Virus record (IMG/VR): IMGVR_UViG_3300047392_000009
Coordinates: 1 to 24,559 of that record
Source: a virus
Strand: one strand, 5' to 3'
Length of the DNA stretch: 24,559 nucleotides
Shown: positions 2,488 to 24,196 of the stretch, piece by piece
How the letters are laid out: each line of letters starts with the position of its first letter
Position numbering within the stretch: the stretch's first letter is position 1
Notes under the pieces: generated by a model
What the model saw: only the letters and a program-made list of their open reading frames with translations
The model's database searches: none
Told to the model about the DNA's origin: nothing
Made by a program: the position numbers and the translations under genes

Positions 2488-3020
2488 AGAAAAGTTATAA
2501 GCTTCTTGAGCAATACAAGAATTACGTTATCCAGCAGGCAAGAGCAAATCTGTCTAAGGGGCGCAATAACTTATCTAAGACGCTTTATAATTCTTTAAAA
2601 GGGGAAATAGTAACAGAGAATAATTACGCGATTGTAGGCTTTAGAATGGAGCTATACGGTCAGTTTTTAGATGAAGGTGTCAAGGGTGCTATGCCTAGTA
2701 TGGTTAAGAACGGAAAGCAGAAAGCTCCAAACTCACGCTTTATGTTTACCAATAAGAGACCACCATCTCAACCGATTGCAGAATGGGCTAAGAAAAGAAA
2801 AATTCGTTTAAGAGATGAATCAGGTAAGTTTAAAAAAGGCAATTATAAAACGCTAGGATTTATTATAGCTAATAGAATTTATGCGCAAGGCATTAAGCCA
2901 ACGCTTTTTTTTACTAAGCCATACGAAGCAGGATTCAAAAAATATATAACAGACCAAATGCCAACGCAAGTGGCAATTGATGTAGACAGAATAGTAGATC
3001 TTAATTTAAAACAGAAATGA
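2481..3020 (+). CDS. HK97 gp10-like head-tail joining/tail completion protein
   Basis: This basic 179-aa protein has the gp10-like layout: an N-terminal helix, then YGQFLDEGVKG near residues 52-64, a Pro-rich RPPSQPIAEWAKKR segment, and a late IYAQGIKPTLFFTKPY motif. In HK97-type phages gp10 family proteins act at the head-tail connector or neck. It overlaps both neighbours by a few bases within the tail operon. The recalled motif order is good evidence for the family; the exact place in the virion is not shown by the sequence. Confidence 0.6.
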   Translation: MLEKSYKLLEQYKNYVIQQARANLSKGRNNLSKTLYNSLKGEIVTENNYAIVGFRMELYGQFLDEGVKGAMPSMVKNGKQKAPNSRFMFTNKRPPSQPIAEWAKKRKIRLRDESGKFKKGNYKTLGFIIANRIYAQGIKPTLFFTKPYEAGFKKYITDQMPTQVAIDVDRIVDLNLKQK

Positions 3021-4093
3021 TAATTTACGCTAGAAGCCCTTATTTTATTACAGTAAATGAATCAGGTCAAGTAGGATCGAAGATTGAAATCCGTATTTGG
3101 AACGATCCAAATTCAAGACCAGATACTGCAACTTATATTTTAACAAAGTCAATTGCCTCCACTTCACAAAGAGCGAACGTTTATAATATAAGTCCATTTA
3201 TTAGAGAGTATATTGATGCTATTAAACCAGCAGACAATACAAACTCTATGCTTGCAAAAATAGAGGTAAAGCGATTTAAGGAAACTTCTGTCGGAACTTA
3301 TAGTTCAGCATTAGACACGACTACATACTACGCAACGGCTGGATACACTAGTTATTCTGGAGGCTATAACCAAACTGGATCTACTGCAACAATTTTACCG
3401 CTTGCCAATACTACCCTTGAGTATTTTTATGATGATGAAGTAACGGAAGCTAAATATCCTTACATTAATGTCTGGGCTAATAACGCAAGCCCTTCAACGC
3501 TAACCGTTTTATACAAAGATTTAAGAGGTCGCAACGAGGTTACGGTTACTATTGCAAGAGATGGAATTAAGCTATATAAAATTCCTTTAAGAACTACTTC
3601 GGTTAAATACAACAAAGGGAATACCTGCACAATACAATGGAAGCCAACAGGAGAATATACAGATGACATCGCAACGATTAAAGTCACTCCTGTATGCGAG
3701 CCTAAATATAGCCCAGTTCAATGTCAGTTTATTAACCGATATGGAGGTTGGCAATTCCTAACTTTCTTTAAGGCTAAAACAAATAATATCCAAACTCAAG
3801 GAACTACGTTTAAATTGCTTCCTGATGCGGTAAATTATAACGCTTCAAGAGCGCAGACTAAAAGCTTTAATATAAATGGAGGTCAGACCGTTAGATTAAA
3901 TACAGGCTGGATACCAGAAAACTACAATGAGCTAATCCAAGATTTGCTATTAGCGGAAACAATCCTTTTAGATAACATTCCAGTCGAAGTTAAAACGACA
4001 CAGACAGATTTAAAGACTTCGTTAAAAGATAGGAATATCAATTACGAGATAGAGTTTGAGTATGCTTTTGATCTTATAAATAACGTGATTTAA
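3017..4093 (+). CDS. Tail-tip associated protein (Bacteroidota phage family), function unproven
   Basis: This 358-aa protein is rich in beta-strand-type alternation, with no signal peptide and no membrane segment. The N-terminus (IIYARSPYFITVNESG) and YNISPFIREYI around residue 55 match a protein that I recall sitting beside the 660-700-aa tail-tip protein in Flavobacterium-type phages. That pairing and the junction here, where one base is shared between stop and start, suggest the two act together at the distal tail or baseplate. The sequence gives no catalytic motif. A Dit-like role is possible but unsupported beyond position. Confidence 0.55.
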   Translation: MIIYARSPYFITVNESGQVGSKIEIRIWNDPNSRPDTATYILTKSIASTSQRANVYNISPFIREYIDAIKPADNTNSMLAKIEVKRFKETSVGTYSSALDTTTYYATAGYTSYSGGYNQTGSTATILPLANTTLEYFYDDEVTEAKYPYINVWANNASPSTLTVLYKDLRGRNEVTVTIARDGIKLYKIPLRTTSVKYNKGNTCTIQWKPTGEYTDDIATIKVTPVCEPKYSPVQCQFINRYGGWQFLTFFKAKTNNIQTQGTTFKLLPDAVNYNASRAQTKSFNINGGQTVRLNTGWIPENYNELIQDLLLAETILLDNIPVEVKTTQTDLKTSLKDRNINYEIEFEYAFDLINNVI

Positions 4094-6081: not shown

Positions 6082-6236
6082 TAAAGCACATAATTGAAAT
6101 GCTAGGATTATTAAACCACTATAATCAAAGCGAAACGATAGAAATTGCCAAAGGTAAGTATGAATTACCAACGACAATAGGTAAAGGATGGAATCAAATT
6201 AAACGTAATTACAAATGGCAAAAAGCGTCGAAGTAG
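6078..6236 (+). CDS. Small conserved-looking 52-aa protein between tail tip and tape measure
   Basis: An ATG overlapping the stop of the large tail-tip gene (ATGA) opens a 52-aa frame, MIKHIIEMLGLLNHYNQ... ending NYKWQKASK, which closes 22 nt inside the tape measure gene. It fills what would otherwise be a 133-nt gap in a block with almost no gaps, and it shares the coupling style of its neighbours. The protein is basic with an amphipathic N-terminal helix. Function unknown; a tail assembly or tip component is a guess from place. Confidence 0.6.
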   Translation: MIKHIIEMLGLLNHYNQSETIEIAKGKYELPTTIGKGWNQIKRNYKWQKASK

Positions 6237-7810
6237 ATATTAATGTAAACAATAATATCGAGGGATCAATATCGCAATTAAAAGCTTTAAAAAGAGAGCT
6301 TAAGAATACTGCCGTTGGTACGGAAGAATTTAAAAGACTCTATAATCAAATTGATGATTTAGAAGATAAAATTAAATCAGCTAAAAACGTTTCGAGCGAT
6401 TGGGTTGATTCCTTAGAGATGGCAGGCGGCCCAGTTGGTATGCTAGGTGGTGCATTAAACAAAGCTAAGGTAGCGACTCAGTCTTGGGGAGCTGCTTTAA
6501 AAGCAACTGGTATCGGCTTAGTTGTTGCAGCGGTTGGTATGCTTGTAAATGCGTTTAGTCAATCGGAAACTTCGATGAAAAAACTAGAGCCATTATTTGA
6601 GGCTTTAGATAAAACTATGGGCGGTATCCTTGAGGTAGCCCAGCCGATGATTGATATGTTTATTGAGCTTGCTATTAAAGCAATGCCTTATGTTACTAAG
6701 GCTCTAGGAATGTTCTATTCTGCTTTAGCTGGTTTATTTACTTATATCAAGACAATGGCGATGGGAGTCGGCAAAGTCTGGAAAGGTATATTTACTCTAG
6801 ACTGGAGTACAATCGTTGAGGGTGTTAAAGAAATGGGTTCATCGTTTGGTAAAACAGCAGAAACCTATACTGCCGCAATGGATCGTTTCGATAAAGGCTA
6901 TGCTAATACAACTAAAAAAATAAAAAGAGGCTCAGTTGAAAGAATTAAAGCCGTAAAAGAAACTGCTGAAACAAGTCTAGATATTTATACGCAAGGATTA
7001 ATAGATGAGTTATTTGCATACGAAGAGCATCAGAAAAAACTAATAGATCTTCAAAAACAATATGCAACAGAGATAGAAGATTTAGAAGCAAATAGTGAAC
7101 AAAAAAAACTTGACTTATGGTATAAAAGACAAAAAGCGGAAATTGATGCTATTGTCAAAACAGAAACTGAAAAGGCAAATTTGTATGCTTTATTAGATAA
7201 ACAAAAAGCAATAAAACAAAAAGAGATTAATGACAAAGCCGAAGAAGATGGTAAACAAATTAGAATTAATAAAGATGCTAAGAAAAAAGCAGATGACGAT
7301 AAAAAAGTTGAGGACGAATTAGATAAAGCTAGAAAAATAGCAGAGGCAAAGAAAAAAATCCTGATGGATTCTGCTACCGTTTTAGGCGAGTATGCAAATA
7401 TATTAGGACAACAAACCGCAGAGGGAAAAGCATTAGCAATTGCTCAAGCAACAATAAACGCATACTTAGGTATATCAGAGATTTGGAAAGCACCTAACCC
7501 TTATCCAGAGCCTTTTGGAACTGCAACTAAAATTGCATCTACGGTAGTTTTAGGAACTGCTGCATTCCAAAACGTGCGGAAAATTTTAGATGTACAAGTT
7601 CCGGGCGGAGGCGCAGGTGGATCAGCCCCTGCAATGACTTCTACAAACGCACCAAATTTTAACGTAGTAGGAACTGGAGGTGCAAATCAAATAGCTCAGT
7701 CTATTGGACAAGCATCTAAAGCCCCATTAAAGGCTTACGTTGTATCTTCTGATGTAACTACTCAACAAGCATTAGATAGAAATATCGTAAAATCTGCGAC
7801 ATTAGGATAA
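6215..7810 (+). CDS. Tail tape measure protein
   Basis: Tape measure proteins set tail length and are ejected into the host envelope ahead of the DNA. This 531-aa protein begins with a helical IEGSISQLKALKRELKN segment and has a hydrophobic stretch at about residues 97-114. A second hydrophobic, Gly/Ala-rich region lies around 155-185. A long charged coiled-coil with many Lys/Glu occupies about 235-370, and the C-terminus is Gly/Ala-rich. Using the rule of about 1.5 angstrom per residue, the tail would be roughly 80 nm (an inference). It lies downstream of the tail-tip genes, the reverse of the usual siphovirus order. No peptidase motif is seen. Confidence 0.8.
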   Translation: MAKSVEVDINVNNNIEGSISQLKALKRELKNTAVGTEEFKRLYNQIDDLEDKIKSAKNVSSDWVDSLEMAGGPVGMLGGALNKAKVATQSWGAALKATGIGLVVAAVGMLVNAFSQSETSMKKLEPLFEALDKTMGGILEVAQPMIDMFIELAIKAMPYVTKALGMFYSALAGLFTYIKTMAMGVGKVWKGIFTLDWSTIVEGVKEMGSSFGKTAETYTAAMDRFDKGYANTTKKIKRGSVERIKAVKETAETSLDIYTQGLIDELFAYEEHQKKLIDLQKQYATEIEDLEANSEQKKLDLWYKRQKAEIDAIVKTETEKANLYALLDKQKAIKQKEINDKAEEDGKQIRINKDAKKKADDDKKVEDELDKARKIAEAKKKILMDSATVLGEYANILGQQTAEGKALAIAQATINAYLGISEIWKAPNPYPEPFGTATKIASTVVLGTAAFQNVRKILDVQVPGGGAGGSAPAMTSTNAPNFNVVGTGGANQIAQSIGQASKAPLKAYVVSSDVTTQQALDRNIVKSATLG

Positions 7811-7837
7811 CGAAAATAAAACAAGGGTAATTTTTAA

Positions 7838-7845
7838 ACGTTTAT
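7838..7845 (+). promoter_or_regulatory. ACGTTTAT element 13 nt before the head protease start
   Basis: This is the second copy of the 8-mer, again followed by exactly 5 nt and an ATG (7851), in the 40-nt gap that separates the tail block from the head block. A promoter or regulatory site at this boundary would let head genes be expressed independently of tail genes. Confidence 0.4.
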
Positions 7846-7850
7846 GCGAT

Positions 7851-8429
7851 ATGAGAATAGTAGAATTAGTAATCGAAAAGGACTTAGATGGCATTGATGC
7901 CGTTAGCTTAGTAGATGCACCAGCTATCGAAGAGAACTTTATTGCTTTGGCTAAAGAATACAAAATGGATTTGGCTGAAGTGGATGCAGAGAAACGTATT
8001 CTGATGGGTGCGGCTTTAGTTCCTAATAAGCAAATCTACCGTAAGCACGGCAAAGATGAGTTTTATGTTTTCTTTTCTGAGAATACGGTTAAGAAAGCAA
8101 GCGAATTATTTTTACAAAATGGCAACCAGTCAAACGCTACGCTAGAACACAAGACCAAATTTGATGGCGCAACGGTAGTAGAATCGTGGATCGTAGATAA
8201 TCCAGAAATGGATAAGTCTAAAAACTACGGATTTAGTTTACCAAAAGGCACTTGGATGATTTCTATGAAAATAGAAGATGACAAAGTTTGGAAAGATGCT
8301 AAAGATGGTAAGTACAAAGGCTTTTCAATTGAAGGCTATTTTGCAGATAAATTAGAAATGTCGCTTCAAGAAATAGAAGCAGAGAATTTAATAAGTGAAA
8401 TTTTAAACATTTTAAACGATGGCAAATAA
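7851..8429 (+). CDS. XkdF-like prohead (capsid maturation) protease
   Basis: Prohead proteases cleave scaffold and capsid precursor during head maturation. The 192-aa protein shows the XkdF-type pattern: an N-terminal DGIDAVSLVDAPAIEENF, then ILMGAALVPNKQIYR near residues 50-64, LEHK with H100, VVESWIVD with E111 and S112, WMISMKIEDDKVWKD, and GFSIEGYF with S159. His and Ser in this spacing fit the serine-protease core of herpes/HK97-type prohead proteases, with H100 and S112 the best catalytic candidates. It is followed closely by a small ORF, a scaffold-like gene and the major capsid gene, the expected context. The start follows an ACGTTTAT element. Confidence 0.8.
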   Translation: MRIVELVIEKDLDGIDAVSLVDAPAIEENFIALAKEYKMDLAEVDAEKRILMGAALVPNKQIYRKHGKDEFYVFFSENTVKKASELFLQNGNQSNATLEHKTKFDGATVVESWIVDNPEMDKSKNYGFSLPKGTWMISMKIEDDKVWKDAKDGKYKGFSIEGYFADKLEMSLQEIEAENLISEILNILNDGK

Positions 8430-8604
8430 AAAATCAAGTCCACAAGCAAGTAATGATAGTGCTTGTCTTTGCGAAGATGGCACTTACTCAAAAGAGTGTT
8501 GTCAAGGGGAAGAAATTAATCAAGGCATTGGTGCTTTGGTTGGTCAATCTAATTCGAATGTAGTTAATACAAATCAGCCTAGAACGGTAGGCTCATCAAG
8601 CTAG
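8419..8604 (+). CDS. Small Cys-rich phage protein (CLCEDGTYSKECC motif)
   Basis: This 61-aa protein overlaps the end of the protease gene by 11 nt. Four cysteines are concentrated in ACLCEDGTYSKECC at about residues 16-29, followed by QGIGALVGQ and a Ser/Asn-rich end. I recall a similar motif in small proteins next to head genes of Bacteroidota phages, which suggests a conserved structural or assembly role; no function is known to me. Paired CxC and CC could bind a metal or form disulfides. The position between protease and scaffold suggests an abundant minor head component, an inference only. Confidence 0.65.
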   Translation: MANKKSSPQASNDSACLCEDGTYSKECCQGEEINQGIGALVGQSNSNVVNTNQPRTVGSSS

Positions 8605-8625
8605 TAAATTAAAACAAATAAATAA

Positions 8626-9210
8626 ATGGAATACAAGAACAAATTAAACCAAATCAAGGCACTTTTGTCTTTAGAGGTTAAGCTTGCTCAGATGAAGTTA
8701 GAGGACGGAATTACCGTAGTCGAAGCAGAATCTTTTGAGCCTGAATACTCTATCGGCATTGTGACTCCAGATGGTATCGTTCCGATGCCTGTTGGAGAGT
8801 ATGAGTTAGAAGATGGATCAATGGTTAAAGTTGAAGTTGAAGGTGTTATTGCTTCAATTGGAGAAAAAGCTCCAGAAGAAGTAGGCCCTGAAAACGAAGC
8901 CGCACCTGAGGAAGTAGTTGCACCAGAAATGGAAGCATCTCCATCTGCACCACAACCTAAAAGAATTGTGGAGTCAGTTTCAAAAGAATCTTTCTTTGAG
9001 GCACAAGTTGCTGAATTGAAGGCTGAGATTGAAGCATTAAAATTAGCTGCTCAAGCTAAGGAAGAAGCAATCGAATTAGCATCTCAAGAAGAAGCTGCTG
9101 AGCCATTGGCTTTTAATCCAGAATCAGCAGTAAAGCCAGAAGGTTTTAAATACGGAAAGAACCGTAACAAAAATATCCAAGATTCAGTATACAACAAATT
9201 ATTCAACTAA
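8626..9210 (+). CDS. Capsid scaffold-like acidic protein
   Basis: This 194-aa, strongly acidic protein lies directly before the major capsid gene and after the protease, the usual site of the scaffold. The middle is Glu/Pro/Ala-rich (about residues 80-118), followed by a predicted coiled coil (FFEAQVAELKAEIEALKLA, residues about 122-145). A basic C-terminus (YGKNRNKNIQDSVYNKLFN) is suited to binding capsid subunits. The N-terminal SIGIVTPDGIVPMPVGEYEL segment looks like a small beta domain. No enzyme motif is seen. It probably guides capsid assembly and is removed by the XkdF-like protease. Confidence 0.65.
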   Translation: MEYKNKLNQIKALLSLEVKLAQMKLEDGITVVEAESFEPEYSIGIVTPDGIVPMPVGEYELEDGSMVKVEVEGVIASIGEKAPEEVGPENEAAPEEVVAPEMEASPSAPQPKRIVESVSKESFFEAQVAELKAEIEALKLAAQAKEEAIELASQEEAAEPLAFNPESAVKPEGFKYGKNRNKNIQDSVYNKLFN

Positions 9211-9229
9211 TTATTAAAATAATACAAAA

Positions 9230-10183
9230 ATGGCGACTAGCACATCAATAACGACCACTTATGCGGGTGAATTTAAAGACAAAATCATCGCAGCAGCTTT
9301 ATTATCTTCTCCAACTATCGACAACGGTGGTATCGAGATCAAACCAAACATCAAGTACAAAGAAGTTATCAAGAAATTAGCTACTGATGCTATCTTGAAA
9401 AATGCAACTTGTGACTTTGATGCAACTTCAACAGTTACTTTAACTGAGCGTGTTTTAACTCCAGAAGAGTTCCAAGTAAACTTACAACTTTGCAAGAAAG
9501 ATTTCCACTCAGATTGGTTATCAGCTCAACAAGGATATTCAGCATTTGATGTTTTACCAAAATCATTCGCTGATTTCTTAGTTGCTCACGTTGCTGCTAA
9601 AGTTGCTGCAAAGAACGAGACTAACATTTGGTCTGGTGTTACTGCTAACGCAGGCGAGTTTGATGGTTTCGCTACTTTATTAGCTGCTGATGCTGCTCTT
9701 CCAACTGCAAACGAAGTTGCTGGTACTACGGTAACATCTTCAAACGTTGTTGCTGAATTAGGCAAAATCGTTGATGCTATCCCTGCTGCTCTTTACACTA
9801 ACGAAAACCTTTACATCTATGTTTCTCAAAACATTGCTCGTGCTTACGTTCGTGCATTAGGTGGATTTGGTGCTTCTGGTTTAGGTGCTAACGGTACTAA
9901 CTCAATGGGAACTCAATGGTACAACAATGGTTCATTATCATTCGATGGTGTTAAAATCTTTGTTGCAAACGGTATGGCTTCTAACAAAGCAATCGCTACT
10001 ACTAAAGACAACTTATACTTCGGTACAGGTTTATTGACTGACCACTCAGAGGTTAAAGTTATTGATTTAGCAGACATCGACGGATCTCAAAACGTTCGTG
10101 TTGTAATGCGTTTAACTGCTGGTGTTCAATACGGTGCGGTAGAAGATATCGTAACTTACGGTATCACTAACTCAGCTAACTAA
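9230..10183 (+). CDS. Major capsid protein (HK97-fold)
   Basis: This 317-aa protein forms the icosahedral shell. The assignment rests on place (protease, scaffold, then this gene), size, the early YKEVIKKLATDAILK segment, an Ala/Gly-rich central part, and the end VMRLTAGVQYGAVEDIVTYGI, which is typical of capsid proteins in Bacteroidota phages. Codon use is visibly different from neighbours: many GCT, AAC, TTC, ATC and GTT codons and few AAA/AAT runs, as expected for a very highly expressed gene. A strong intrinsic terminator starts 12 nt after the stop, which may limit readthrough into the tail tube gene. Confidence 0.85.
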   Translation: MATSTSITTTYAGEFKDKIIAAALLSSPTIDNGGIEIKPNIKYKEVIKKLATDAILKNATCDFDATSTVTLTERVLTPEEFQVNLQLCKKDFHSDWLSAQQGYSAFDVLPKSFADFLVAHVAAKVAAKNETNIWSGVTANAGEFDGFATLLAADAALPTANEVAGTTVTSSNVVAELGKIVDAIPAALYTNENLYIYVSQNIARAYVRALGGFGASGLGANGTNSMGTQWYNNGSLSFDGVKIFVANGMASNKAIATTKDNLYFGTGLLTDHSEVKVIDLADIDGSQNVRVVMRLTAGVQYGAVEDIVTYGITNSAN

Positions 10184-10194
10184 TAGCACAAAAA

Positions 10195-10225
10195 AGCACC
10201 TCGTTAATTCGGGGTGCTAATTTTT
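10195..10225 (+). terminator. Intrinsic terminator after the major capsid gene
   Basis: A 9-bp stem (AGCACCTCG with CGGGGTGCT, one G-T pair) with a 6-nt loop is followed by TTTTT after two A. It starts 12 nt beyond the capsid stop codon and is a classical rho-independent structure. Confidence 0.85.
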
Positions 10226-10247
10226 AACTTTTTAAATAATAATCAAT

Positions 10248-10772
10248 ATGTGCGATATTTCATTAGGGCGCATTGAACCTTGCAAAACCAGTCAAGGCGG
10301 TTTAAGAGCCGTTTATTTTGTAAACTGGAAAGATGCAACGACGATGACCTACGATGCAACAAATACGGATGTAATTACTGCGGTAGCTGGAACTCCACAA
10401 GCTTTCAAATATGAGCTAAAAGGAACTTCAAGCTTTGAGCAAACTATTACTTCTAGTCGTGATAACGGCACAACTTTCTTTGAGCAAACATTAACTTTGA
10501 CTTTGAAGAAATTGTCTATTGTGGATCATAAGCAAATTAAATTATTGGCATACGGAAGACCGCAGGTTGTGGTTGAAGATATGAACGGTAATTTCTTTTA
10601 TGCAGGTTTGACAAACGGAATGGAAGTATCAGGTGGCACGATTGTTACCGGTGCAGCAATGGGCGATCTTTCGGGATACACATTGACACTTATGGGACAA
10701 GAGCCAGTTCCTGCTAACTTCATTGGAGCTTCATTGACTACTGCTGGATTCACGATAGTTTCTGGATCTTAA
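10248..10772 (+). CDS. Major tail tube protein
   Basis: A 174-aa protein that would polymerise into the tail tube. It begins MCDISLGRIEPCKTSQGG, then SSFEQTITSSRDNGTTFFEQ near residues 63-83. Further blocks are LLAYGRPQVVVEDMNGNFFYAG and GAAMGDLSGYTLTLMGQEPVPANF near the end. I recognise this motif order from the tail tube family of Bacteroidota phages. It sits between two strong terminators (10195-10225 and 10797-10826), so it may be expressed as its own transcript or by readthrough from the capsid gene. It lies 2.4 kb after the tape measure and before the portal, an unusual place for this gene. Confidence 0.75.
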   Translation: MCDISLGRIEPCKTSQGGLRAVYFVNWKDATTMTYDATNTDVITAVAGTPQAFKYELKGTSSFEQTITSSRDNGTTFFEQTLTLTLKKLSIVDHKQIKLLAYGRPQVVVEDMNGNFFYAGLTNGMEVSGGTIVTGAAMGDLSGYTLTLMGQEPVPANFIGASLTTAGFTIVSGS

Positions 10773-11188: not shown

Positions 11189-12914
11189 CGTTCACGTTTT
11201 TAATTTTGAATCGCATAAGCCACCGACAAGCACAGAATCAAAAAGAGATAACTGGGTGGAGTTTGGCGATGACAACGATTACTTTCAGTATTTAATTGAA
11301 CGCTACAATAATAGCACGACTAACAACTCTGTTATTAATTCAATTAATAAGCTAATCTATGGTCGTGGCTTAGATGCAACGGATTCAAATAAGAAGCCGA
11401 ACGATTACGCTCAGATGAAAATGTTATTCCGTCCTGAGGTATTAAAGTGCGTTATTACAGACTATAAATTATTAGGTCAAGGTTACTTTCAGCTAATCTA
11501 TAACAAGGCAAAAAATGCCATTGTAAGAGTTGAGCATATTCCAGCGCAGTTATTAAGAGCTGAGAAATGCAATGAGAAAGGCGAGATTACAGGATATTAT
11601 TATTCTGATAACTGGAAAGAAACCAAGAAATTCCCACCTAAAAGAATACCAGCCTACGGATACGGAGATCAAACTCTTGAATTGCTTTGCGTTCGGGATT
11701 ATTCAGTAGGACAAAAGTATTATTCCAATGTAGATTATATCGGTGCTTTAGCTTATGCAACCTTAGAAGAAGAAATTGCTGATTATTTAATCAACGATGT
11801 TCAAAATGGATTCTCACCTACTTCTGTAATTAACTTCAACAACGGTGTACCTGATGAAGAGAAGCAAAGCCTAATCGCCTCAGATGTAAAGCGTAAATTA
11901 AGCGGATCAAATGGTGCTAAGATTGTTGTAGCATTTAATAGCGATGAAACTAAGAAAACGACTATCGATTCAGTTCCATTAAACGATGCGCCTGCTCATT
12001 ATCAATATCTGAGTGAAGAATCAAGAGGTAAGATTTTGCTTGGTCACTCTATTACATCTGGTTTATTATTTGGTATCCCATCTAGCAACGGATTCAGTTC
12101 TAATGCAGATGAATTAAAGAACGCTTCTATCTTATTTGATAACTTGGTAATTAGACCAAAGCAACACAGAGTATTAGAGGCTTTAGATGAGATTTTAGCA
12201 TTTAATAAAGTAACGTTAAACCTTTACTTTAAGACTTTACAACCTTTGGAATTTATTGACCAAAATCCAGTAATGGATTCGGCAACAATGGAAGAGGAAA
12301 CAGGTGTAAAATTATCATCTCATATTGATGAATTAGATGTCGAAGAATTTGGCGCAGAAATGAATCCTGATGAATGGGAATTGATTGATGCTAGACCAGT
12401 ATCATACGAAGATGAAGATCGCTTAGATGCAGAGTTAGAGGCTTTAAATAATCCATCTAAATCTATTATGTCTAAGGTATGGGAATTTGTAACGACAGGA
12501 GTTGCTAGACCAGACTTAAAGTCAGAGCAAGATGGTAAACTATTTGCATCTCGTTACAGATATAGCGGTACTATTTCGCCTGATTCTCGTGAGTTTTGTC
12601 AGAAAATGCTGATTGCAAATAAGCTTTATCGTAAAGAGGATATAGTTAGAATGGGACAAAAGCCTAAAACTAATCCAGGATTTGGGCCAAAAGGTGCAGA
12701 TACTTATGATATATTCCTTTACAAAGGAGGCGGTGCTTGCCATCACTTCTGGACTCGTGAAACTTACAAGCGTTTTATTGATCCAAGAAGAAGCGGAGCT
12801 GAACAAATTACTCCATCTCAAGCAAGGAGACAAGGAGAGATATTACCAACTAATCCAAGCAAAGTATATCAGAAACCCATTGATATGCCTAATAAAGGAT
12901 TTTTACCTAAATAA
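11181..12914 (+). CDS. Portal protein with C-terminal minor-head-like domain
   Basis: The portal is the dodecameric ring through which DNA enters and leaves the head. Residues about 1-400 show the portal pattern seen in Bacteroidota phages: WVEFGDDNDYFQYLIERYNNS, NSINKLIYGRGLDATD, LLGQGYFQLIYNKAKN, IPAQLLRAEKCNEKGEI, and a helical FGIPSSNGFSSNADELK segment. The last 130 or so residues carry a separate domain (RYRYSGTISPDSREFCQKML, YRKEDIVRMG, YKGGGACHHFWTRETYKRF) with a Cys/His/Trp cluster. This resembles a head-morphogenesis (Mu gpF-like) domain usually found as a separate minor head protein. The 577-aa length is consistent with such a fusion. A DUF6712-type connector gene follows 3 nt later. 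Portal role is firm; the domain label is tentative. Confidence 0.85.
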   Translation: MSNVHVFNFESHKPPTSTESKRDNWVEFGDDNDYFQYLIERYNNSTTNNSVINSINKLIYGRGLDATDSNKKPNDYAQMKMLFRPEVLKCVITDYKLLGQGYFQLIYNKAKNAIVRVEHIPAQLLRAEKCNEKGEITGYYYSDNWKETKKFPPKRIPAYGYGDQTLELLCVRDYSVGQKYYSNVDYIGALAYATLEEEIADYLINDVQNGFSPTSVINFNNGVPDEEKQSLIASDVKRKLSGSNGAKIVVAFNSDETKKTTIDSVPLNDAPAHYQYLSEESRGKILLGHSITSGLLFGIPSSNGFSSNADELKNASILFDNLVIRPKQHRVLEALDEILAFNKVTLNLYFKTLQPLEFIDQNPVMDSATMEEETGVKLSSHIDELDVEEFGAEMNPDEWELIDARPVSYEDEDRLDAELEALNNPSKSIMSKVWEFVTTGVARPDLKSEQDGKLFASRYRYSGTISPDSREFCQKMLIANKLYRKEDIVRMGQKPKTNPGFGPKGADTYDIFLYKGGGACHHFWTRETYKRFIDPRRSGAEQITPSQARRQGEILPTNPSKVYQKPIDMPNKGFLPK

Positions 12915-12917
12915 GAA

Positions 12918-13418
12918 ATGGCACAAGCATTATTTATTACTCGTGAGGATTTAGTTAAGTTTACTGCGTTAAATGGAAACATTGACACAGACCGCTTTAT
13001 CCAATGGATTAAGGTGGCTCAAGACATCCACATTCAAAACTATTTAGGTACTAAATTATTCAACAAAATTAACGATGGTATTGTAGCTAACAATTTAGCA
13101 AATCCTTACTTGACACTTTTAAACGTTTATATCAAGCCAATGGTTATTCATTGGTCAATGGTTGAGTTTTTGCCGTTTAGTGCTTACACTTTTGCAGGTA
13201 AAGGAGTATATAAACATTCATCTGAGAACTCTCAAAACGTGGATAAGGAAGAGATTGATTTCTTAATCGAAAAGGAGCGTTCTATCGCAGAGCATTACAC
13301 TCGCAGATTTGTAGATTATATGAGTTTTAATCAGTCGCAGTTCCCAGAATATAACACGAATAGCAATGCAGATATGTTCCCTGACAAACAAGCGGACTTC
13401 GGTGGCTGGTATCTCTAG
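12918..13418 (+). CDS. Head-tail connector/adaptor (DUF6712-like)
   Basis: This 166-aa, mostly helical protein begins MAQALFITREDLVKFTALNGNIDTD. It continues with IKVAQDIHIQNYLGTKLFNKI at about residues 31-51, and then KPMVIHWSMVEFLPFSAYTF. The end is FPDKQADFGGWYL. This order matches, from memory, the DUF6712 family, which sits directly after the portal in Bacteroidota phages and is thought to form the adaptor ring under the portal (gp6-like). The gene starts 3 nt after the portal stop. No unusual codon use or disruption is seen. Confidence 0.75.
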   Translation: MAQALFITREDLVKFTALNGNIDTDRFIQWIKVAQDIHIQNYLGTKLFNKINDGIVANNLANPYLTLLNVYIKPMVIHWSMVEFLPFSAYTFAGKGVYKHSSENSQNVDKEEIDFLIEKERSIAEHYTRRFVDYMSFNQSQFPEYNTNSNADMFPDKQADFGGWYL

Positions 13419-17493: not shown

Positions 17494-17781
17494 ATGGCAT
17501 TTTTAGACATTTTCAAGGATGACAATGAGATCAACGAGAAAGCAATTTTAGGATTTGCATCGTTTGGTATCTTAACTATCTACGGCATTGCAGATGTAGT
17601 GACTGGATTAGAGCAACAACAATTTGTAATTGAGCCAATTATCTTAGAGGTATTTGCAGGCTTGACATTCGGTTGCTTTGGTATAGCTTCTTACGAGAAA
17701 GTTGCTAACCGTAAAACGGATGCAGAGCGTGAGAAAAACTTACAAGGTGGTTTAGCTCCACTTCCAGAAGATGAAGGTTAA
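17494..17781 (+). CDS. Holin candidate (two membrane segments)
   Basis: This 95-aa protein has two hydrophobic segments, about residues 18-39 (AILGFASFGILTIYGIADVV) and about 45-66 (FVIEPIILEVFAGLTFGCFG). They are joined by a short polar turn and followed by a charged tail (NRKTDAEREK). Size, two-helix topology and place before a GH19 endolysin fit a holin that opens the inner membrane and times lysis. Many Flavobacterium-type phages have a similar small membrane protein here. The 3' end overlaps the next gene by 11 nt. Alternative: a membrane protein of other use. Confidence 0.6.
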   Translation: MAFLDIFKDDNEINEKAILGFASFGILTIYGIADVVTGLEQQQFVIEPIILEVFAGLTFGCFGIASYEKVANRKTDAEREKNLQGGLAPLPEDEG

Positions 17782-18376
17782 TATAGCCCTTTTCATTTGT
17801 TGTATGATTGCCATCTTCTATGCTTATACAAAGCATAAGCAAGCAGGAGAGGCGAAGCCGAATGATACATTAGTCGTTCACGATACAACGTGGCGCATAC
17901 ACGATTCTATAATCGTAAAGAAAGTGCCTATATTAAAAGAGATTGTTGTAGAGGTAGCATCTAAACCAGAGATGCTACCTGACACAAATTACGCAAATCT
18001 TAAGCGCCAATATATGGCTTTACTTCAGTTGTATATGAATAAAGTAATTTATTCCGATACGATTAGAGTGGGCAATTACGGATACATTGCAGTTTTAGAT
18101 TCAATTCAAAATAATAAATTAACCAGCAGAAGAACTCGTGAGAACTATCAGATTCCTGAGATTAAAGAAACGAAAACTATCACACGCTATTTACCGCCAT
18201 CACGATCTTTGTTTGTGGGCGGTGGAATTACTACAAGCAATTCAATAGGAATCAGGGGCATCGAAGCTGGAATACTTTACAAAACAAAAAAGGAATCAAT
18301 TTTTAATATCAAAGCGCAGGTAGATTTAGATGGTCAGCCGATGTATGGCTTTGGCTATTATCACAAAATTAAATAG
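17771..18376 (+). CDS. Membrane-anchored periplasmic protein (DUF6808-like); spanin-like candidate
   Basis: A 201-aa protein with an N-terminal membrane anchor (about residues 4-20), then a periplasmic region with repeated short acidic strands (NDTLVVHDTTWRIHDSIIVKK). An RQYMALLQLYMNKVIYSDT segment follows. The C-terminal third (SLFVGGGITTSNSIGIRG to MYGFGYYHKIK) alternates like two or three beta-hairpins of an outer-membrane strand set. I recall similar DUF6808-type proteins beside lysis genes in Bacteroidota phages. An anchored inner-membrane protein reaching to the outer membrane, between holin and endolysin, would suit a unimolecular spanin-like function. That is inference. Confidence 0.6.
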   Translation: MKVNIALFICCMIAIFYAYTKHKQAGEAKPNDTLVVHDTTWRIHDSIIVKKVPILKEIVVEVASKPEMLPDTNYANLKRQYMALLQLYMNKVIYSDTIRVGNYGYIAVLDSIQNNKLTSRRTRENYQIPEIKETKTITRYLPPSRSLFVGGGITTSNSIGIRGIEAGILYKTKKESIFNIKAQVDLDGQPMYGFGYYHKIK

Positions 18377-18378
18377 AT

Positions 18379-19227
18379 ATGCTTTTAAGAGTAGGTTCAA
18401 CAGGGGATGATGTCGTAAAACTTCAAGTAAAATTAGGAGTTGATCCGATTGGTAAATTTGGCCCAAAAACTGAGGCCGCAGTAAAAGGCTGGCAATTAGC
18501 TCACGGATTAAATCCTGATGGTATTGTTGGCGATTCAACGTGGGGCAAGTTATTTGCAGAGGTGGCACAAGTACCCACTCCGCAGATTATCGTTCAACCT
18601 GAGCCAACTATCGTGCCTCAAAGCGGATTCAAATTAGATAGATTGGTTGGTCATATTCCTCAAGCGGTTATTAATCAGATTCCTGATACCGCAGCTAGAT
18701 TTGGAATTACAAGTTCATTAAGACTGGCACATTTTCTAGCGCAATGCGGACACGAAAGCGGAGGATTCAGAGCAGTTAGCGAAAACCTAAACTATTCTGC
18801 TAAAGGATTGCTAGGTATTTTCCGCAAGTATTTCACAAATGTAAACTTGGCGATGCAATACGAGCGCAAGCCTGAGAAGATTGCTAACAAGGTTTATGCT
18901 AACCGTATGGGTAATGGTAACGAAGCAAGTGGAATGGGTTGGAAGTACCGTGGACGCGGATATATTCAATTGACGGGTTTTGAAAATTATAAATCATTCG
19001 ATGCTACAGTACCTGAAGATATCGTAGTTAATCCTGATTTAGTGGCTACTAAATACGCACTAGCATCAGCTGCTTTCTTTTTTAAGAAGAATGGCTTATG
19101 GGCAATATGCGATAGAGGTGCTTCGGCTGATGTAGTTACCACAGTAACTAAGCGTGTAAACGGTGGAACAATCGGTTTAGCTGACAGACAAAAACACTTT
19201 AACGAATACTATAAACTTTTAAGCTAA
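18379..19227 (+). CDS. Endolysin: peptidoglycan-binding domain plus GH19 lysozyme/chitinase
   Basis: This muramidase-like enzyme degrades peptidoglycan at lysis. Residues about 1-60 form a PG_binding_1 domain (LLRVGSTGDDVVKLQVKLG, GKFGPKTEAAVKGWQ, PDGIVGDSTWGKLF). A short Pro/Gln linker follows, then a GH19 catalytic domain from about residue 85. The acid E126 lies in GHESGGF and a second Glu, E135, in SENLNYS. YRGRGYIQLTG, the family's substrate-cleft motif, is at about residues 193-203. There is no signal peptide, so release to the periplasm would need a holin. The 282-aa length is normal for a two-domain GH19 endolysin, and I see no missing catalytic residue. Confidence 0.9.
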   Translation: MLLRVGSTGDDVVKLQVKLGVDPIGKFGPKTEAAVKGWQLAHGLNPDGIVGDSTWGKLFAEVAQVPTPQIIVQPEPTIVPQSGFKLDRLVGHIPQAVINQIPDTAARFGITSSLRLAHFLAQCGHESGGFRAVSENLNYSAKGLLGIFRKYFTNVNLAMQYERKPEKIANKVYANRMGNGNEASGMGWKYRGRGYIQLTGFENYKSFDATVPEDIVVNPDLVATKYALASAAFFFKKNGLWAICDRGASADVVTTVTKRVNGGTIGLADRQKHFNEYYKLLS

Positions 19228-19349
19228 TGGCAAAGGCTACCAATGGCAATACCAAAATCTCTTTCGGAAAGAAGAAAAAAGGAAAAGCAAAGCGATCCTA
19301 TTCAAAACTTGAACAAAAGCCAAAGGCTTATAAAGGACAAGGAAGATGA
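19227..19349 (+). CDS. Small very basic conserved-looking phage protein, 40 aa
   Basis: ATG 19227 overlaps the endolysin stop (TAATG), and the TGA 19347-19349 overlaps the next ATG (ATGA). The 40-aa product MAKATNGNTKISFGKKKKGK ... ending PKAYKGQGR is extremely Lys-rich. I recall this type of ISFGKrk...KGQGR protein as a recurrent small gene in Bacteroidota phages near the lysis or tail genes. It may bind nucleic acid or a membrane; function unknown. It fits the coupling on both sides, unlike the longer overlapping frame starting at 19243. Confidence 0.7.
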   Translation: MAKATNGNTKISFGKKKKGKAKRSYSKLEQKPKAYKGQGR

Positions 19350-19861
19350 GCAACGCATTTGCAATTACCGCAAAGATTGTTTCAGTTATTATTGGAATGA
19401 GTTTTACGGTACAAACTTATTTCATCTATAAGCACTTTGTTCCTAGTGAGCCAATAACGGTTGCACCAGTTGAGAATCGGGTGCAGATAGGAGCTTTGGC
19501 TGGGAATAGAAACATTGCCTTTGGTGTAAAGAATATACTAGAAGAATACTTAATAGTAAAGGAATACGATTTAGCAGATGGATCGGATAAAGTATTGAAA
19601 GTAGAAATTCTTTACTTAGATGTTTACAAGCGTGAGGCTAATCTATCTATATTTCACGGTGCTACCGATGCGGTTGTAATTCGATTGAGAGGCACGTTAT
19701 ACAATAAAGGTAAGGTAGTAAGTAAGGCAATAGTAGAAGAGCAAGCGGAAGAGGTGTCAATGTCCACTTTGCTAATAGATGAAGGCGGTGAATTTAACCA
19801 GCAGAATCTTTCAAGTGCTTTAAAAAAATCGTGCAACTCTTTAATCAATAAATTGCTTTGA
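19346..19861 (+). CDS. Membrane-anchored CsgG/LpoB-fold-like protein, paralogue of 22278-22985
   Basis: A 171-aa protein with a hydrophobic N-terminal segment (about residues 8-27) and a soluble domain: VQIGALAGNRNIAFGVKNIL, EEYL, LKVEILYLDV, VVIRLRGTL, EEVSMSTLLIDEGGEFNQQN and a final helix. The motif FGVKNILEEYL matches LGVTNIVVEYL of the CsgG-like protein at 22278-22985, each followed by strands in similar order. This suggests the two are paralogues of the CsgG/LpoB fold. I recall similar small proteins beside csgG-type genes in marine phages. It may be an inner-membrane or periplasmic partner of the outer-membrane CsgG-like ring. ATGA/TTGA overlaps tie it to both neighbours. Confidence 0.6.
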   Translation: MSNAFAITAKIVSVIIGMSFTVQTYFIYKHFVPSEPITVAPVENRVQIGALAGNRNIAFGVKNILEEYLIVKEYDLADGSDKVLKVEILYLDVYKREANLSIFHGATDAVVIRLRGTLYNKGKVVSKAIVEEQAEEVSMSTLLIDEGGEFNQQNLSSALKKSCNSLINKLL

Positions 19862-21627
19862 AAAATCTTATCGCTTTTGCCTTAGTCTTAATTAGCCTTT
19901 CTGCTAATAGCCAAACTATTAAGCTTGCTTTCCAGAATGATACTACCAATACAAACGTAAACGGTCAAGTCATTAATAAAGGCGATATATTTGATGTAGT
20001 AGTCAATGCCGATGGCAATGGTAATTTATCTGCAAGAGCTTTATATTTTGACTTTGAATTTCAAAACGATGCGTTTGAGTTTATCTCAATTAATCACACA
20101 GGTACAGGTGGCAATGGTGGCATAATTCCTTACGGATCACAAATTTCTGATTCTCATTATTTATATCCGGGATATACTTATTATAAGACATCTCAGAATA
20201 ATACTTCAAATGGTAATATAAATTACAACTTTGCTCAATATAACTACACGCAGAATGGCAATAAAACGATTCTACGCTATTATCTCAACTGGGCAATACA
20301 ATCGGGTGGATTAGGAAAAGATAGGCTCTTAGTGCTAAAGTTTAGACTTAAAACAACTGCACCGGGTTTCGCTTGGAATCCTATCTTAATGAATTTTGCT
20401 GCTGCGTTTAATCAAAACGGCTCGGCTGGTGCTACATTAATGGAGATTCCTTTGACAAATGTTATAATGTTAGATCCTACGGCTTCCAAATATGTGACTG
20501 CAAAGCTAGAAACTAACTCTAATATCAATCAGCTATCGCTTAATCGTGTAGTATTTGAGGATACTTTGCGCAAAACTATCCACAGATTTGATGCTTTAAG
20601 CGATGGAACTATTCCAATTGATCAAACGGTATTGCAACCTAATACCGTTTATCGTGTTTATAATAGCGTTAATGCAGATTCATACCTTGATTTACACGCT
20701 TCAGCAGTTACGGTTTCAGACTTTACAACGGCACAAGCTGAGTTTAATACCCAAAATTTAGATGGCACTTTTAAAGGGCAATCTATTATAACTGGTCAGG
20801 GTTATTTAGCGGCAGATATTAACCAGAATAAAAAGTTTGATGGGGGCGATGTCGTTAGGATATTTAGCCAAGCGGTGGGAGTTGATCCGATTGTTTCAAT
20901 GAAACCTAACTACCAAGCTGGAGTTGATATGTACTACGGTGTGCCTACGTTTACCGATTCTACTTTTAACGCTATAAGCGTAGCTAATTGGAAAAATATC
21001 ACTAGCGATGTAGTATATTTTAAAACGCAGGAGATAGGCAAGAATCTACCGCTTAATTTAAAGTATGGTTTAATTGGCGATATTAACCGCTCGCATTCAT
21101 CGCAGGTTATGAACGGCAATACAATTGTAAGTAACGCAATCCCATCGCTTAAAAAGAATCTAGGTAGCCCTACATCGAATTTATTAATCAATACAACGCA
21201 ACCGCTTCAAGCTATTGATGTAACTATTAAAAGCCAAACCGTAACTAGCAACACGATAGAGATTCCAATTGCCATTGATACTAAATCCTTGACACTCTCA
21301 GGGCTTCAATTTGAATTAATATACGATGCTACCAAAATAAAATTTGAAAGCATTACAAACGAATTACCGAATACTTGGTACACGTTTGTAAGCAACAAAG
21401 ATGGCAAGATTAAATTTGGATCGTTGGATAAGGAAATGAAAACAACTGTAAGCGGTAAGTTGATTCCTTTTAAATTAAATTTTAGTTCTATTAATAACGG
21501 AACAGACTTAAATACGTTTATCAAAGTGAGTCCAGTTATGGATGCCAGCTCTAAAACTGGCTACCAATTAGGCATAAATCTAAATACAGATAACATAAAA
21601 CTAACAGGAATAAATTTATTTCAATGA
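19858..21627 (+). CDS. Secreted cohesin-dockerin-cohesin-like protein
   Basis: This 589-aa protein starts at TTG overlapping the previous stop (TTGA). Only this start includes the signal peptide (KNLIAFALVLISLSANSQ). The N-terminal region (TIKLAFQNDTTNTNVNGQ, GDIFDVVVNADG, DFEFQNDAFEFISI) resembles a cohesin-type beta-sandwich. A central dockerin-like calcium loop pair follows: AADINQNKKFDGGDVVRIF at about residues 318-336 and LIGDINRSHSS at about 405-415. The last 150 residues again look cohesin-like (IEIPIAIDTKSLTLSGLQFE, LIYDATKIKFESI, GKIKFGSLDKE). The protein is probably exported and may bind a dockerin- or cohesin-bearing partner or itself. It has no enzyme motif. It is most likely cargo or partner of the neighbouring CsgG-like proteins. 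Confidence 0.65.
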   Translation: MKNLIAFALVLISLSANSQTIKLAFQNDTTNTNVNGQVINKGDIFDVVVNADGNGNLSARALYFDFEFQNDAFEFISINHTGTGGNGGIIPYGSQISDSHYLYPGYTYYKTSQNNTSNGNINYNFAQYNYTQNGNKTILRYYLNWAIQSGGLGKDRLLVLKFRLKTTAPGFAWNPILMNFAAAFNQNGSAGATLMEIPLTNVIMLDPTASKYVTAKLETNSNINQLSLNRVVFEDTLRKTIHRFDALSDGTIPIDQTVLQPNTVYRVYNSVNADSYLDLHASAVTVSDFTTAQAEFNTQNLDGTFKGQSIITGQGYLAADINQNKKFDGGDVVRIFSQAVGVDPIVSMKPNYQAGVDMYYGVPTFTDSTFNAISVANWKNITSDVVYFKTQEIGKNLPLNLKYGLIGDINRSHSSQVMNGNTIVSNAIPSLKKNLGSPTSNLLINTTQPLQAIDVTIKSQTVTSNTIEIPIAIDTKSLTLSGLQFELIYDATKIKFESITNELPNTWYTFVSNKDGKIKFGSLDKEMKTTVSGKLIPFKLNFSSINNGTDLNTFIKVSPVMDASSKTGYQLGINLNTDNIKLTGINLFQ

Positions 21628-21980
21628 GATATTTAGTAGCATTGGCGATTTTAGTGGCGTTTGCATCTTGTAATGAGCCAGAAATTGCCATACAAGAGCC
21701 GATAAGTTTGGGAAGTAAGCCAGAAAATAATGCTTTGATTGGCTATAATATAGTAAATAGAACGGCTTACATCAGGGCAAAGACTACAATTGGCGCAAAA
21801 TACTCGCTTCAGTTGTCTAAGCTAGGCGAATCTGAAGCAATAAAAGCGCAAGGATTTACGGCTTCAGCAGATGAATCCAATTTAGTTGTCAATTTTGATA
21901 ATACTAAAACTGGCATTTACGACTTAATTTTAATTGATACAGAGGGAAACGTGTCTAAATTACCTATAAACATTCTATAA
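21624..21980 (+). CDS. Small lipoprotein of the envelope module
   Basis: A 118-aa protein with a lipoprotein-type signal (MRYLVALAILVAFASC, candidate lipidated Cys16) followed by acidic NEPEIAIQEP. In Bacteroidota an acidic stretch right after the Cys can act as a surface-export signal, so this protein may sit on the outside of the outer membrane. The rest is one small beta-rich domain (YSLQLSKLGES, LVVNFDNTKTGIYDLILID, NVSKLPINIL) like a short Ig/TQ-type fold. ATG overlaps the previous stop (ATGA). Function unknown; a pilot or docking lipoprotein of the module is a guess. Confidence 0.6.
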   Translation: MRYLVALAILVAFASCNEPEIAIQEPISLGSKPENNALIGYNIVNRTAYIRAKTTIGAKYSLQLSKLGESEAIKAQGFTASADESNLVVNFDNTKTGIYDLILIDTEGNVSKLPINIL

Positions 21981-21981
21981 A

Positions 21982-22284
21982 ATGGCAGAAGAACAAGAAT
22001 CAGGAGGCTCATTAAAGAGTATTTTAATTGGCTTATTATCTACAATTGCTATTGCAGTAGGTGGATATGTAACAAAACAATTAACTGGCGATGATGAAGT
22101 TAAAGTAGAAGCTCCAGCTACTACTGCGCAACAACCGCAAATCGTTATTAATAACGCTCAAACTCAGCAACAATCTAGCGGAGGCAAAACGGTCATTATT
22201 AAAGAGAAATCGGCAGATCCAGTCAAAGAAAAGCCGAAGCCTAAAACGGCTAAAGAAGAATTAGAAGAAGCCCCAAAATGGTAA
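21982..22284 (+). CDS. Single-pass membrane protein with charged tail
   Basis: A 100-aa protein: an acidic start (MAEEQESGG), a hydrophobic segment at about residues 11-30 (LKSILIGLLSTIAIAVGGYV), a Gln/Ala-rich stretch, and a Lys/Pro/Glu-rich tail (KEKSADPVKEKPKPKTAKEE). It is probably anchored in the inner membrane. Lying between a lipoprotein and the CsgG-like gene, with a 7-nt overlap into the latter, it is likely part of the same module; the long Pro/Lys tail could reach into the periplasm. No family recognised. Confidence 0.55.
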   Translation: MAEEQESGGSLKSILIGLLSTIAIAVGGYVTKQLTGDDEVKVEAPATTAQQPQIVINNAQTQQQSSGGKTVIIKEKSADPVKEKPKPKTAKEELEEAPKW

Positions 22285-22985
22285 AATGGACTATTTGCTT
22301 ATTGCTCTTATCGTTGTCCTGCTTTGGGCAGATAGCTTCGACAAAGACTGAAAGCTATACGGCATCGTTTGAAAAGAAAATCAATATCGATTCTCTAATG
22401 GATTACGATGGTGTTAAGATTCCTATTCAATTATTATCATTAGGAATTAGCGATGAGGTTTATGCATCATATCCAGAGCTTAAAGATAAGCGTGTCGGGC
22501 TTGGTGTAACTAATATCGTAGTCGAATACCTAGAGGAAACTAATCGCTTTACATTCACAGAGGATAAGGCTGAGATAAAGAACAGAATGGTTAAGCAGTT
22601 CCAAGCCAGCCAGTCAGGAATCACAGAGAATAAACTAGATGGTAGAGGCAAGATAAAGCTTGCTCAATACTTTGTTTATATAGAGGTTTATGATTTTAGC
22701 GTTTCAGAAGATGAATCAATCAGCTTCAAAGATGGAGTCAAGCAAACCGTAGTGACACGTTTAGGATTGCAGGTTAAGTTTGTAAACGCTGAAACTGGCG
22801 AATACTTTACAGGCTCTGGATTGGGCGAAGCAAAGACAACCAGAGAAGCAACGCTTATGAACGATGGCAACTTTGCTGAAATCAAGTTTAATCAATCTAC
22901 AATAGGAAGCACAACAAAGAAAGCATTAGAGAACGCATCAGCTAAAATCATTGTAAGAATGATTAAGAAAAAGCTATTCAAATGA
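22278..22985 (+). CDS. CsgG-like outer-membrane protein (curli-type secretion pore family)
   Basis: CsgG proteins are lipoproteins that form a nonameric outer-membrane channel for curli export. This 235-aa protein has a signal peptide with a possible lipidated Cys15 (LLLLSLSCFGQ); the -3 residue is atypical, so cleavage after FGQ is the alternative. The domain follows the CsgG order: VGLGVTNIVVEYLEETNRFTF (first strand and helix), RGKIKLAQYFVYIEVYDF, then TRLGLQVKFVNAETGEYFTG. The final part is FNQSTIGSTTKKALENA plus a helix. The size fits CsgG (about 260 aa). A smaller relative is encoded at 19346-19861. Its stop overlaps the next start (ATGA). I recall csgG-type genes in some marine phages. 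Pore formation here is not shown. Confidence 0.75.
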   Translation: MVKWTICLLLLSLSCFGQIASTKTESYTASFEKKINIDSLMDYDGVKIPIQLLSLGISDEVYASYPELKDKRVGLGVTNIVVEYLEETNRFTFTEDKAEIKNRMVKQFQASQSGITENKLDGRGKIKLAQYFVYIEVYDFSVSEDESISFKDGVKQTVVTRLGLQVKFVNAETGEYFTGSGLGEAKTTREATLMNDGNFAEIKFNQSTIGSTTKKALENASAKIIVRMIKKKLFK

Positions 22986-24196
22986 AATGGCTAGTCGTAT
23001 TGTTTACATTTGTAACCGTTACGGCTTCGGCTCAAGTATTAACGCAGACATTTATTGATCCTTGCTCTGGTCAGGTTACGGTTGTAACCGTTCCAATTGC
23101 TAATGGCAAAACAACTATTGTATATCGTGGTAAATTTAGAATAGTAACGGCTAACGATATCACATCGGGAGAGCTGCAAGCTTGGATTAATAACCTTACT
23201 ATTAATTTTCCTTGTCCACAGGCATCGGTAGCGGTCACGCAAACGGTTACTAAAGCAGTTCAGCAAGCAGTCGCACAGGCTACATCATCGGCTACAAGTC
23301 AAGCAACTAGTCAGGCAGCAAGTTCAGCGGTGGCCGCATCCGTTTCTTCGCCTCCGCCTATTGCATCGCCTCCGCCAGCGACATCTTCATCGCCAGCTCC
23401 AGCAGCAAAATCAGAATCATCAACACCACAAGCCGAAAGTAAAAGTGAAAGCAAATCAGAAAGTACAGAAGCTAAGGCTGAATCTAAAAGTGAAGAGAAG
23501 AGCGAATCGAAAAGCGAAAGCAAAAGCGAAAAGAAATCTACGGCTAAGAGTGTTGCTAAAAGCAATCCAATTATTTACTCGTCTGATTTTACGGTTGCCC
23601 CTACTTCTGATGTTATATCGGTCATTGCTTCCGCTGGTATTAGCCAGTCTAGTTTAATGGGCAATTCATCGTGGGGAATTAGCACAATGATTTGGTCTAC
23701 ACTAGATCAGTTTGCTTTAAGTGGTAGATATACTAAAATGAACTTCAACTCTGGCAAGCTAGAGAGTATTGTAAACTATGGAATTACAGGCGTTTATTTG
23801 GGTGGTTCTATACTTGGATTCGGAACGGCTGCTTATATCTATCCTATGGGCAAGTATGGTGTATCTGGTGCTAACTATACGCTATCCTTTGCAGGTGCAG
23901 ATGTCGGATTGAATATAGCAAATAACATTCTATTATTTTATACAATACCAATACCGTTAAATAAACGGCTTACAATATCACCAGATTTGTACATTTCAGG
24001 ATCCTCAACTGGATACCTAACTAGTCAAAAGATATTTGTCACAAGCGATGATGTAGGCTTTTTAGGTGGAGCTTCATTTGATATTGCACTCACAAAACGC
24101 TTCAAATTAAACTTTGCACTTAAGTCTGGAATCAATACTAATCCTGAGATCCCAATAAATTACCTTATGATGGTAGGTACTAAACTAAATTTATAA
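22982..24196 (+). CDS. Secreted/outer-membrane protein with Lys-Ser-Glu linker and beta-barrel-like C-terminus
   Basis: This 404-aa protein has a signal peptide (residues 1-18, ...TASAQ) and an N-terminal domain of about 60 residues bounded by C28 (FIDPCSGQ) and C78 (NFPCPQ), which could form a disulfide. Low-complexity linkers follow: Ala/Ser/Gln about 80-120, Pro/Ser/Ala about 120-140, and Lys-Ser-Glu repeats about 140-190. The last 210 residues alternate like transmembrane beta-strands (FALSGRYTKMNF, GITGVYLGGSILGFGTAAYI, FGGASFD-type strands, final MVGTKLNL). It is probably inserted in the outer membrane with the N-terminal domain tethered by a long linker. It follows the CsgG-like gene by ATGA overlap and ends the operon. 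Family not identified. Confidence 0.65.
   Translation: MKWLVVLFTFVTVTASAQVLTQTFIDPCSGQVTVVTVPIANGKTTIVYRGKFRIVTANDITSGELQAWINNLTINFPCPQASVAVTQTVTKAVQQAVAQATSSATSQATSQAASSAVAASVSSPPPIASPPPATSSSPAPAAKSESSTPQAESKSESKSESTEAKAESKSEEKSESKSESKSEKKSTAKSVAKSNPIIYSSDFTVAPTSDVISVIASAGISQSSLMGNSSWGISTMIWSTLDQFALSGRYTKMNFNSGKLESIVNYGITGVYLGGSILGFGTAAYIYPMGKYGVSGANYTLSFAGADVGLNIANNILLFYTIPIPLNKRLTISPDLYISGSSTGYLTSQKIFVTSDDVGFLGGASFDIALTKRFKLNFALKSGINTNPEIPINYLMMVGTKLNL

Follow-up and report, generated by a model that had tools for sequence, protein, structure and literature searches.

Which role could be played by six consecutive genes with features of envelope proteins that lie directly after the endolysin gene of a phage? 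We considered this question for the IMG/VR virus record IMGVR_UViG_3300047392_000009, positions 1-24,559 (hereafter the window, meaning the whole stretch of ~24.6 kb that was analysed). The record carries terminase, portal and tail genes, and its portal is 34% identical to the portal of Nonlabens phage P12024S. The original prediction, made from the sequence, had described the six genes as an outer-membrane module centred on a CsgG-like protein and modelled on curli-type secretion. We analysed the products of these genes, their neighbours and their relatives in other phages.

The six-gene locus and its recurrence in phages

All six predicted ORFs, here named A to F, were found in the predicted order (Table 1), and the near-seamless arrangement that had been claimed for them was also confirmed, with distances of -4 nt between A and B, -4 between B and C, +1 between C and D, -7 between D and E and -4 between E and F. 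A further ORF of 62 aa (19243-19431), located between the endolysin gene and A, overlaps the beginning of A but is read in a different frame; it had no family match in Pfam or PHROGs and is possibly spurious. Scans for promoters and terminators gave no signal above chance.

Table 1. Features of the module and of its linked neighbours in the window
Feature	Position	Strand	Description and basis
A	19346..19861	+	171 aa; predicted N-terminal membrane helix, then periplasmic domain assigned to the CsgG/LptE/PelC superfamily (AF2 model and Foldseek)
B	19858..21627	+	589 aa; predicted exported (signal-peptide-like start); dockerin-like module and C-terminal cohesin
Dockerin-like module of B	20815..21102	+	EF-type loop DINQNKKFDGGD to GDINRSHSS (loop pattern and module HMM)
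Cohesin domain of B	21223..21495	+	aa 456-546; PF00963, 3.7e-7
C	21624..21980	+	118 aa; predicted lipoprotein, lipobox FASC at aa 13-16 (sequence)
Sorting-domain homologue (T9SS type A) within C	21750..21962	+	hhalign profile comparison
D	21982..22284	+	100 aa; predicted single membrane segment at 22018-22074; Pro/Lys/Ala-rich tail ending in KEELEEAPKW (sequence and alignments of relatives)
E	22278..22985	+	235 aa; predicted exported, predicted CsgG fold, no lipobox (AF2 model and Foldseek)
F	22982..24196	+	404 aa; predicted exported; two-Cys domain, linker, putative barrel (sequence)
G (endolysin, linked neighbour)	18379..19227	+	phrog_181, 2.7e-70
I (two-helix membrane protein)	17494..17781	+	holin-like by position; no family match

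Relatives of E are encoded on at least 509 IMG/VR contigs in the wider of two scans (105 in the other), and these contigs reach a length of 317 kb. For the survey of gene content we clustered all the ORFs of 115 loci and counted gene presence in the 72 loci with at least 8 kb of upstream and at least 4 kb of downstream sequence (hereafter flanked loci). B and F were present in all 72, A in 70 and D in 63, in agreement with the expectation that the genes of the module would occur together in other phages. The corresponding count for C, 38 of 72, is an undercount caused by the ORF filter. All the A, B, D and F genes found within 8 kb shared the strand of E. The same genes thus recur in the same order in about a hundred phage loci, far beyond chance, with the reservation that the loci are related and their counts do not represent independent events. 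The genes of the module are under purifying selection: dN/dS, calculated against four relatives, was lowest for E (0.02-0.03) and A (0.03-0.05) and amounted to 0.07-0.23 in the other four genes.

Only two of 84,980 bacterial species genomes carried E, both of them MAGs, and a search of 396 Bacteroidota genomes with the E profile gave one match, which was already known. We therefore ruled out E as a bacterial gene, and the family appears to be confined to phages because it is nearly absent from bacterial genomes. Among cultured phages (50,697 records), E was found only in the Flavobacterium phage immuto (four records, 160 kb), an isolated relative that infects Flavobacterium and in which D-, F- and cohesin-type genes adjoin E. 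A tblastn search of B and F against the cultured phages gave no match.

Cohesin, dockerin-like and sorting domains of B and C

B had been proposed as an exported, cohesin-like partner of the module, and both its signal-peptide-like start and its match to PF00963, which scored 30.8 bits against a cutoff of 24.1, support this proposal. An EF-type loop pattern was present in 122 of the 132 B-family proteins, compared with 10.5 expected by shuffling, and in most of the family it is followed by GDxNxSHS. We termed this module dockerin-like because the Pfam model Dockerin_1 stays below its cutoff in the B-family proteins (best score 16.1 bits, against 22.9).

In the host, the T9SS type A sorting domain directs proteins to the cell surface. 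Many relatives of B terminate with a domain of this type (PF18962 up to 2.4e-10, TIGR04183 above cutoff), and gp015 of immuto consists of a cohesin and a T9SS type A sorting domain (9.3e-12). An HMM built from eight of these domains and run on the 3126 ORFs of the 115 loci matched only B proteins and C, the best C at 3e-10. When C and the sorting domain were compared directly by hhalign, the probability was 95.9% (E 5.4e-9), versus 0.9% for an unrelated control, and in one locus (L099) C alone exceeds the TIGR04183 cutoff. C, whose lipobox agrees with the lipoprotein that had been predicted at this position, is by these profile comparisons a lipoprotein homologue of the sorting domain.

The distribution of the two forms was mutually exclusive. 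Precisely, the sorting domain was fused to B with no C in 37 loci (fused type), and C was present with no fused domain in 70 (split type); no locus had both and none had neither. Parsimony on the tree of E requires at least 5 changes of state, of which 3 are forced by well-supported branches; with shuffled states the mean is 21. This repeated exchange provides good evidence for a joint action of B and C. The window belongs to the split type, in which B has no sorting domain and the homologue is on the separate lipoprotein. No T9SS signal in the window itself passes a cutoff, a point against the display of B that is proposed below. C of the window has lost the PNPxxG motif, so that a tether is to be favoured over a secretion signal. 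At least two acidic residues are found at positions +2 to +6 in 25 of 39 C members (counted with no control set), a weak resemblance to the SDDFE export signal of F. johnsoniae lipoproteins (PMC5080379).

Three loci (L048, at 2298-10705, and also L049 and L051) carry two B-type proteins and two C-like lipoproteins; the gene order in L048 is A-B-B-C-like-C-like-F-D-I-E. The copy number of C seems to follow that of B, given that loci with two B have two C-like lipoproteins.

In the fused type a second B-type protein is usually encoded downstream of F (27 of 30 fused loci, against 1 of 63 others). With the module HMM derived from the first copies, the second copies were matched at their C-termini (2e-16 to 6e-11), and in 22 second-copy proteins the C-terminal end coincides exactly with the dockerin-like module. 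A Pfam C-type lectin domain was detected in the second copy of L046 and in gp013 of immuto, and weakly in L108, while a lectin motif is present in 13 of 25 downstream copies. Two separate genes of immuto encode the dockerin-like part (gp014) and the part with cohesin and sorting domain (gp015). As judged from domain matches, an effector with its dockerin-like module, a cohesin and a surface-sorting domain are fused or split in several ways among these phages. In locus L094, a protein that does not belong to the B family (11969-13108) also carries the dockerin-like module (HMM 8.8e-10), which hints at other proteins with this module in these phages.

The sorting domain of B relatives, its homologue C and the second dockerin-like protein had all gone unnoticed in the original prediction, and they point to surface display through or alongside the T9SS, not to curli-type secretion or to a release pore. 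We propose that this module of Bacteroidota phages, probably expressed late, equips the infected cell with a surface scaffold of cohesin/dockerin type, for which A, D, E and F would provide support in the envelope. We consider the chances of this reading being right and of its being wrong about equal. In the fused type, processing by the host T9SS would tether B to the outer surface, and in the split type the lipid anchor of C would do so. Contacts between cohesins and dockerin-like modules would then either join copies of B or recruit the second dockerin-like protein, often a lectin. The displayed scaffold would most likely alter the adhesion of the infected cell, by the capture of neighbouring cells or glycans, or else it would act as a shield.

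Some phage lipoproteins act by blocking superinfection. A displayed complex of B and C might mask or bind receptors and in this way prevent the adsorption of other phages; B and C are in fact much more variable than E, as expected for parts that face variable targets, and the idea has been raised both for phage curli (PMC9599517) and for the T9SS cargo of Cryophage (PMC7468147). We regard this explanation as unlikely, if the least so of the alternatives considered, since a late position by the lysis genes would leave little time for any benefit and no receptor-like or inhibitor domain was found.

Predicted envelope components and lysis context

For E, searches of Pfam, PHROG and PDB by sequence gave nothing useful, and only the fold search worked. 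The CsgG fold of this protein, on which the original prediction had been made to depend beforehand, was recovered: with the AF2 model of E (pLDDT 72, pTM 0.63) the top Foldseek matches in the PDB were CsgG (E 7e-7, prob 1.00, TM about 0.45, for a moderate model), followed by structural matches to FlgT, HpaA and GNA1162, and the top viral structural match was a phage protein annotated as CsgG. The AF2 model of A (pLDDT 73) matched LptE, PelC, FlgT, GNA1162, HpaA and CsgG with prob 1.00, and also CT253. The profile of A compared with that of E gave 75% (E 2.5e-5) with a wider alignment of A and 13% with a narrow one; the low value is explained by alignment depth. On the basis of models and profiles, A and E both belong to the CsgG/LptE/PelC superfamily, and the claim of two such proteins in the module stands, E with a predicted CsgG fold and A with one of LptE/PelC/FlgT type.

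The role that had been suggested for E, a curli-type outer-membrane pore, is not supported. No lipobox was found in any of the 115 members of the E family, and the Pfam family CsgG (PF03783) had no match at E up to 10 in the window, a search in which positive controls were detected. With the two hairpins that would cross the membrane anchored at VNxxTGE, hairpin 1 of E has 34 residues and hairpin 2 has 29, the corresponding lengths in E. coli CsgG being 40 and 39; they are hence 6 and 10 residues shorter and both ~30% charged, and the short, acidic hairpin 1 contains the invariant E144-D145-E146. Because it lacks a lipobox, a PF03783 match and full-length hairpins, E is unlikely to be a standard CsgG pore. 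Furthermore, no Pfam match to CsgE, CsgF or curlin was obtained among the ten proteins scanned. A pore of E that exports B or aids lysis, for which the fold, the nearby endolysin and holin-like genes and the published proposal of a CsgGF lysis role in the OM43 methylophage Melnitz (PMC9004378) would speak, has for these reasons a low probability, which we place below that of a superinfection block.

The fold of A and E is shared with LptE, PelC, FlgT, HpaA and GNA1162, members of the CsgG superfamily without a pore, to which no sequence similarity was detected. PelC and FlgT form rings and yet no CsgG-type pore. No polysaccharide, flagellar or LPS genes were seen in the module. Within the surface scaffold that we propose, A and E would act in the periplasm, most likely as rings. 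Along with D in the membrane and the barrel protein F, they would bridge the envelope and hold or guide B across it; for all four proteins such a role is suggested by fold, signal and position only.

D has the single hydrophobic segment of the membrane protein that had been predicted. Its C-terminus (KEELEEAPKW, 22252-22281; often PKW) is nearly constant in the relatives, even in those without the overlap of D and E, and is therefore kept at the protein level; it may be a binding peptide. In F, an N-terminal two-Cys domain extends to ~23221 and a linker to ~23563, after which a putative outer-membrane barrel follows. Of the predicted linker and barrel, the former was confirmed as a low-complexity segment of 116 residues, rich in Ser, Ala, Lys and Glu, and the latter looks like a beta barrel by eye, F having no Pfam family. 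We also considered a barrel of PorP/SprF type, rejected as there was no Pfam match. The two cysteines of the N-terminal domain (22982-23221; DPC and PCP) are kept despite very different linkers and barrels.

The endolysin gene G is directly upstream of the module in the window. Of the 72 flanked loci, 69 have a holin-like or an endolysin gene within 8 kb, and holin-like genes, including I in other loci, lie between D and E in 45 of the 72; the label holin-like is based on position and hydrophobic segments only, and I has no PHROGs match. Endolysin genes occurred in 59 flanked loci, I in 53 and a second membrane protein (t) in 41. In a set of 16 distinct contigs (80-309 kb), 13 had the endolysin gene inside the fetched locus, compared with 2.6 expected. 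The description of an envelope module placed beside lysis genes is thus supported, and this place suggests a late role: it supports late expression, without proving a lysis function.

Gene H (17771-18376), between the holin-like gene and the endolysin gene, is present in 37 of the 72 flanked loci. Its product begins with a hydrophobic segment, continues with a middle part that looks periplasmic and ends in a strand-rich part; it could be a one-piece spanin.

The least probable explanation is that D in the inner membrane, E and A in the periplasm and F in the outer membrane form a bridge of spanin type by which the outer membrane is ruptured at lysis, with B and C as accessories: the holin-like genes between D and E, the frequent lysis genes nearby, the extended Pro/Lys tail of D and the absence of H from about half of the loci are consistent with it, but phages of the window type already have H as a separate spanin-like gene, B is as constant as F (both 72 of 72), and a role in lysis leaves the sorting domain, the cohesin and the lectin unexplained.

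Known systems and meaning of the module

Curli modules have been described in pelagiphages, with ideas of sibling capture and of superinfection control (PMC9599517), a lysis role has been proposed for CsgGF of Melnitz (PMC9004378), and csgG is a common so-called virulence gene of marine phages (PMC7003362). Like those of pelagiphages and Melnitz, the present module consists of several phage genes for the envelope with a CsgG-fold protein at their centre, is situated close to lysis or late genes and occurs in various phage groups. Unlike it, the curli (type VIII) modules carry recognisable CsgG and CsgF (and CsgA/B), whereas the predicted secreted protein is here a cohesin protein linked to the T9SS. 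T9SS cargo genes are known from Cryophage (PMC7468147), where genes of Bacteroidota phages likewise encode type A sorting domains and are presumed to use the host system; there, however, the cargo consists of variable enzymes and a PA14 protein, and here it is a conserved module with a predicted cohesin scaffold, in which the sorting domain has moved onto a lipoprotein. As in cellulosome-type scaffolds, cohesin and dockerin-like parts are on predicted secreted, surface-sorted proteins, fused or separate, but the module has no enzymes, is encoded by phages and has an atypical dockerin module that stays under the Pfam cutoff. In the open-access literature (most subscription papers and all preprints were outside the search) we found no description of the present gene combination.

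As a more tentative proposal, which we hold to be possible but rather doubtful, the module could be a transferable kit for a surface scaffold, made of cohesin and dockerin-like parts, a lectin, a T9SS domain fused or acting in trans and an envelope complex with two CsgG-fold proteins, by which doomed cells would be made sticky shortly before lysis.

The replacement, several times, of the sorting domain by a homologous lipoprotein is a natural experiment on how this domain works and on its possible action in trans. Moreover, phage genes of the CsgG fold usually carry a curli or virulence label, and the module suggests a non-curli function for them. If the proposed display is true, it would be common for phages of a dominant environmental phylum to reprogram the surface of the cells they infect by means of a dedicated kit for export and display, a kit almost hidden among cultured phages, where it is represented by one isolate group in 50,697 records.
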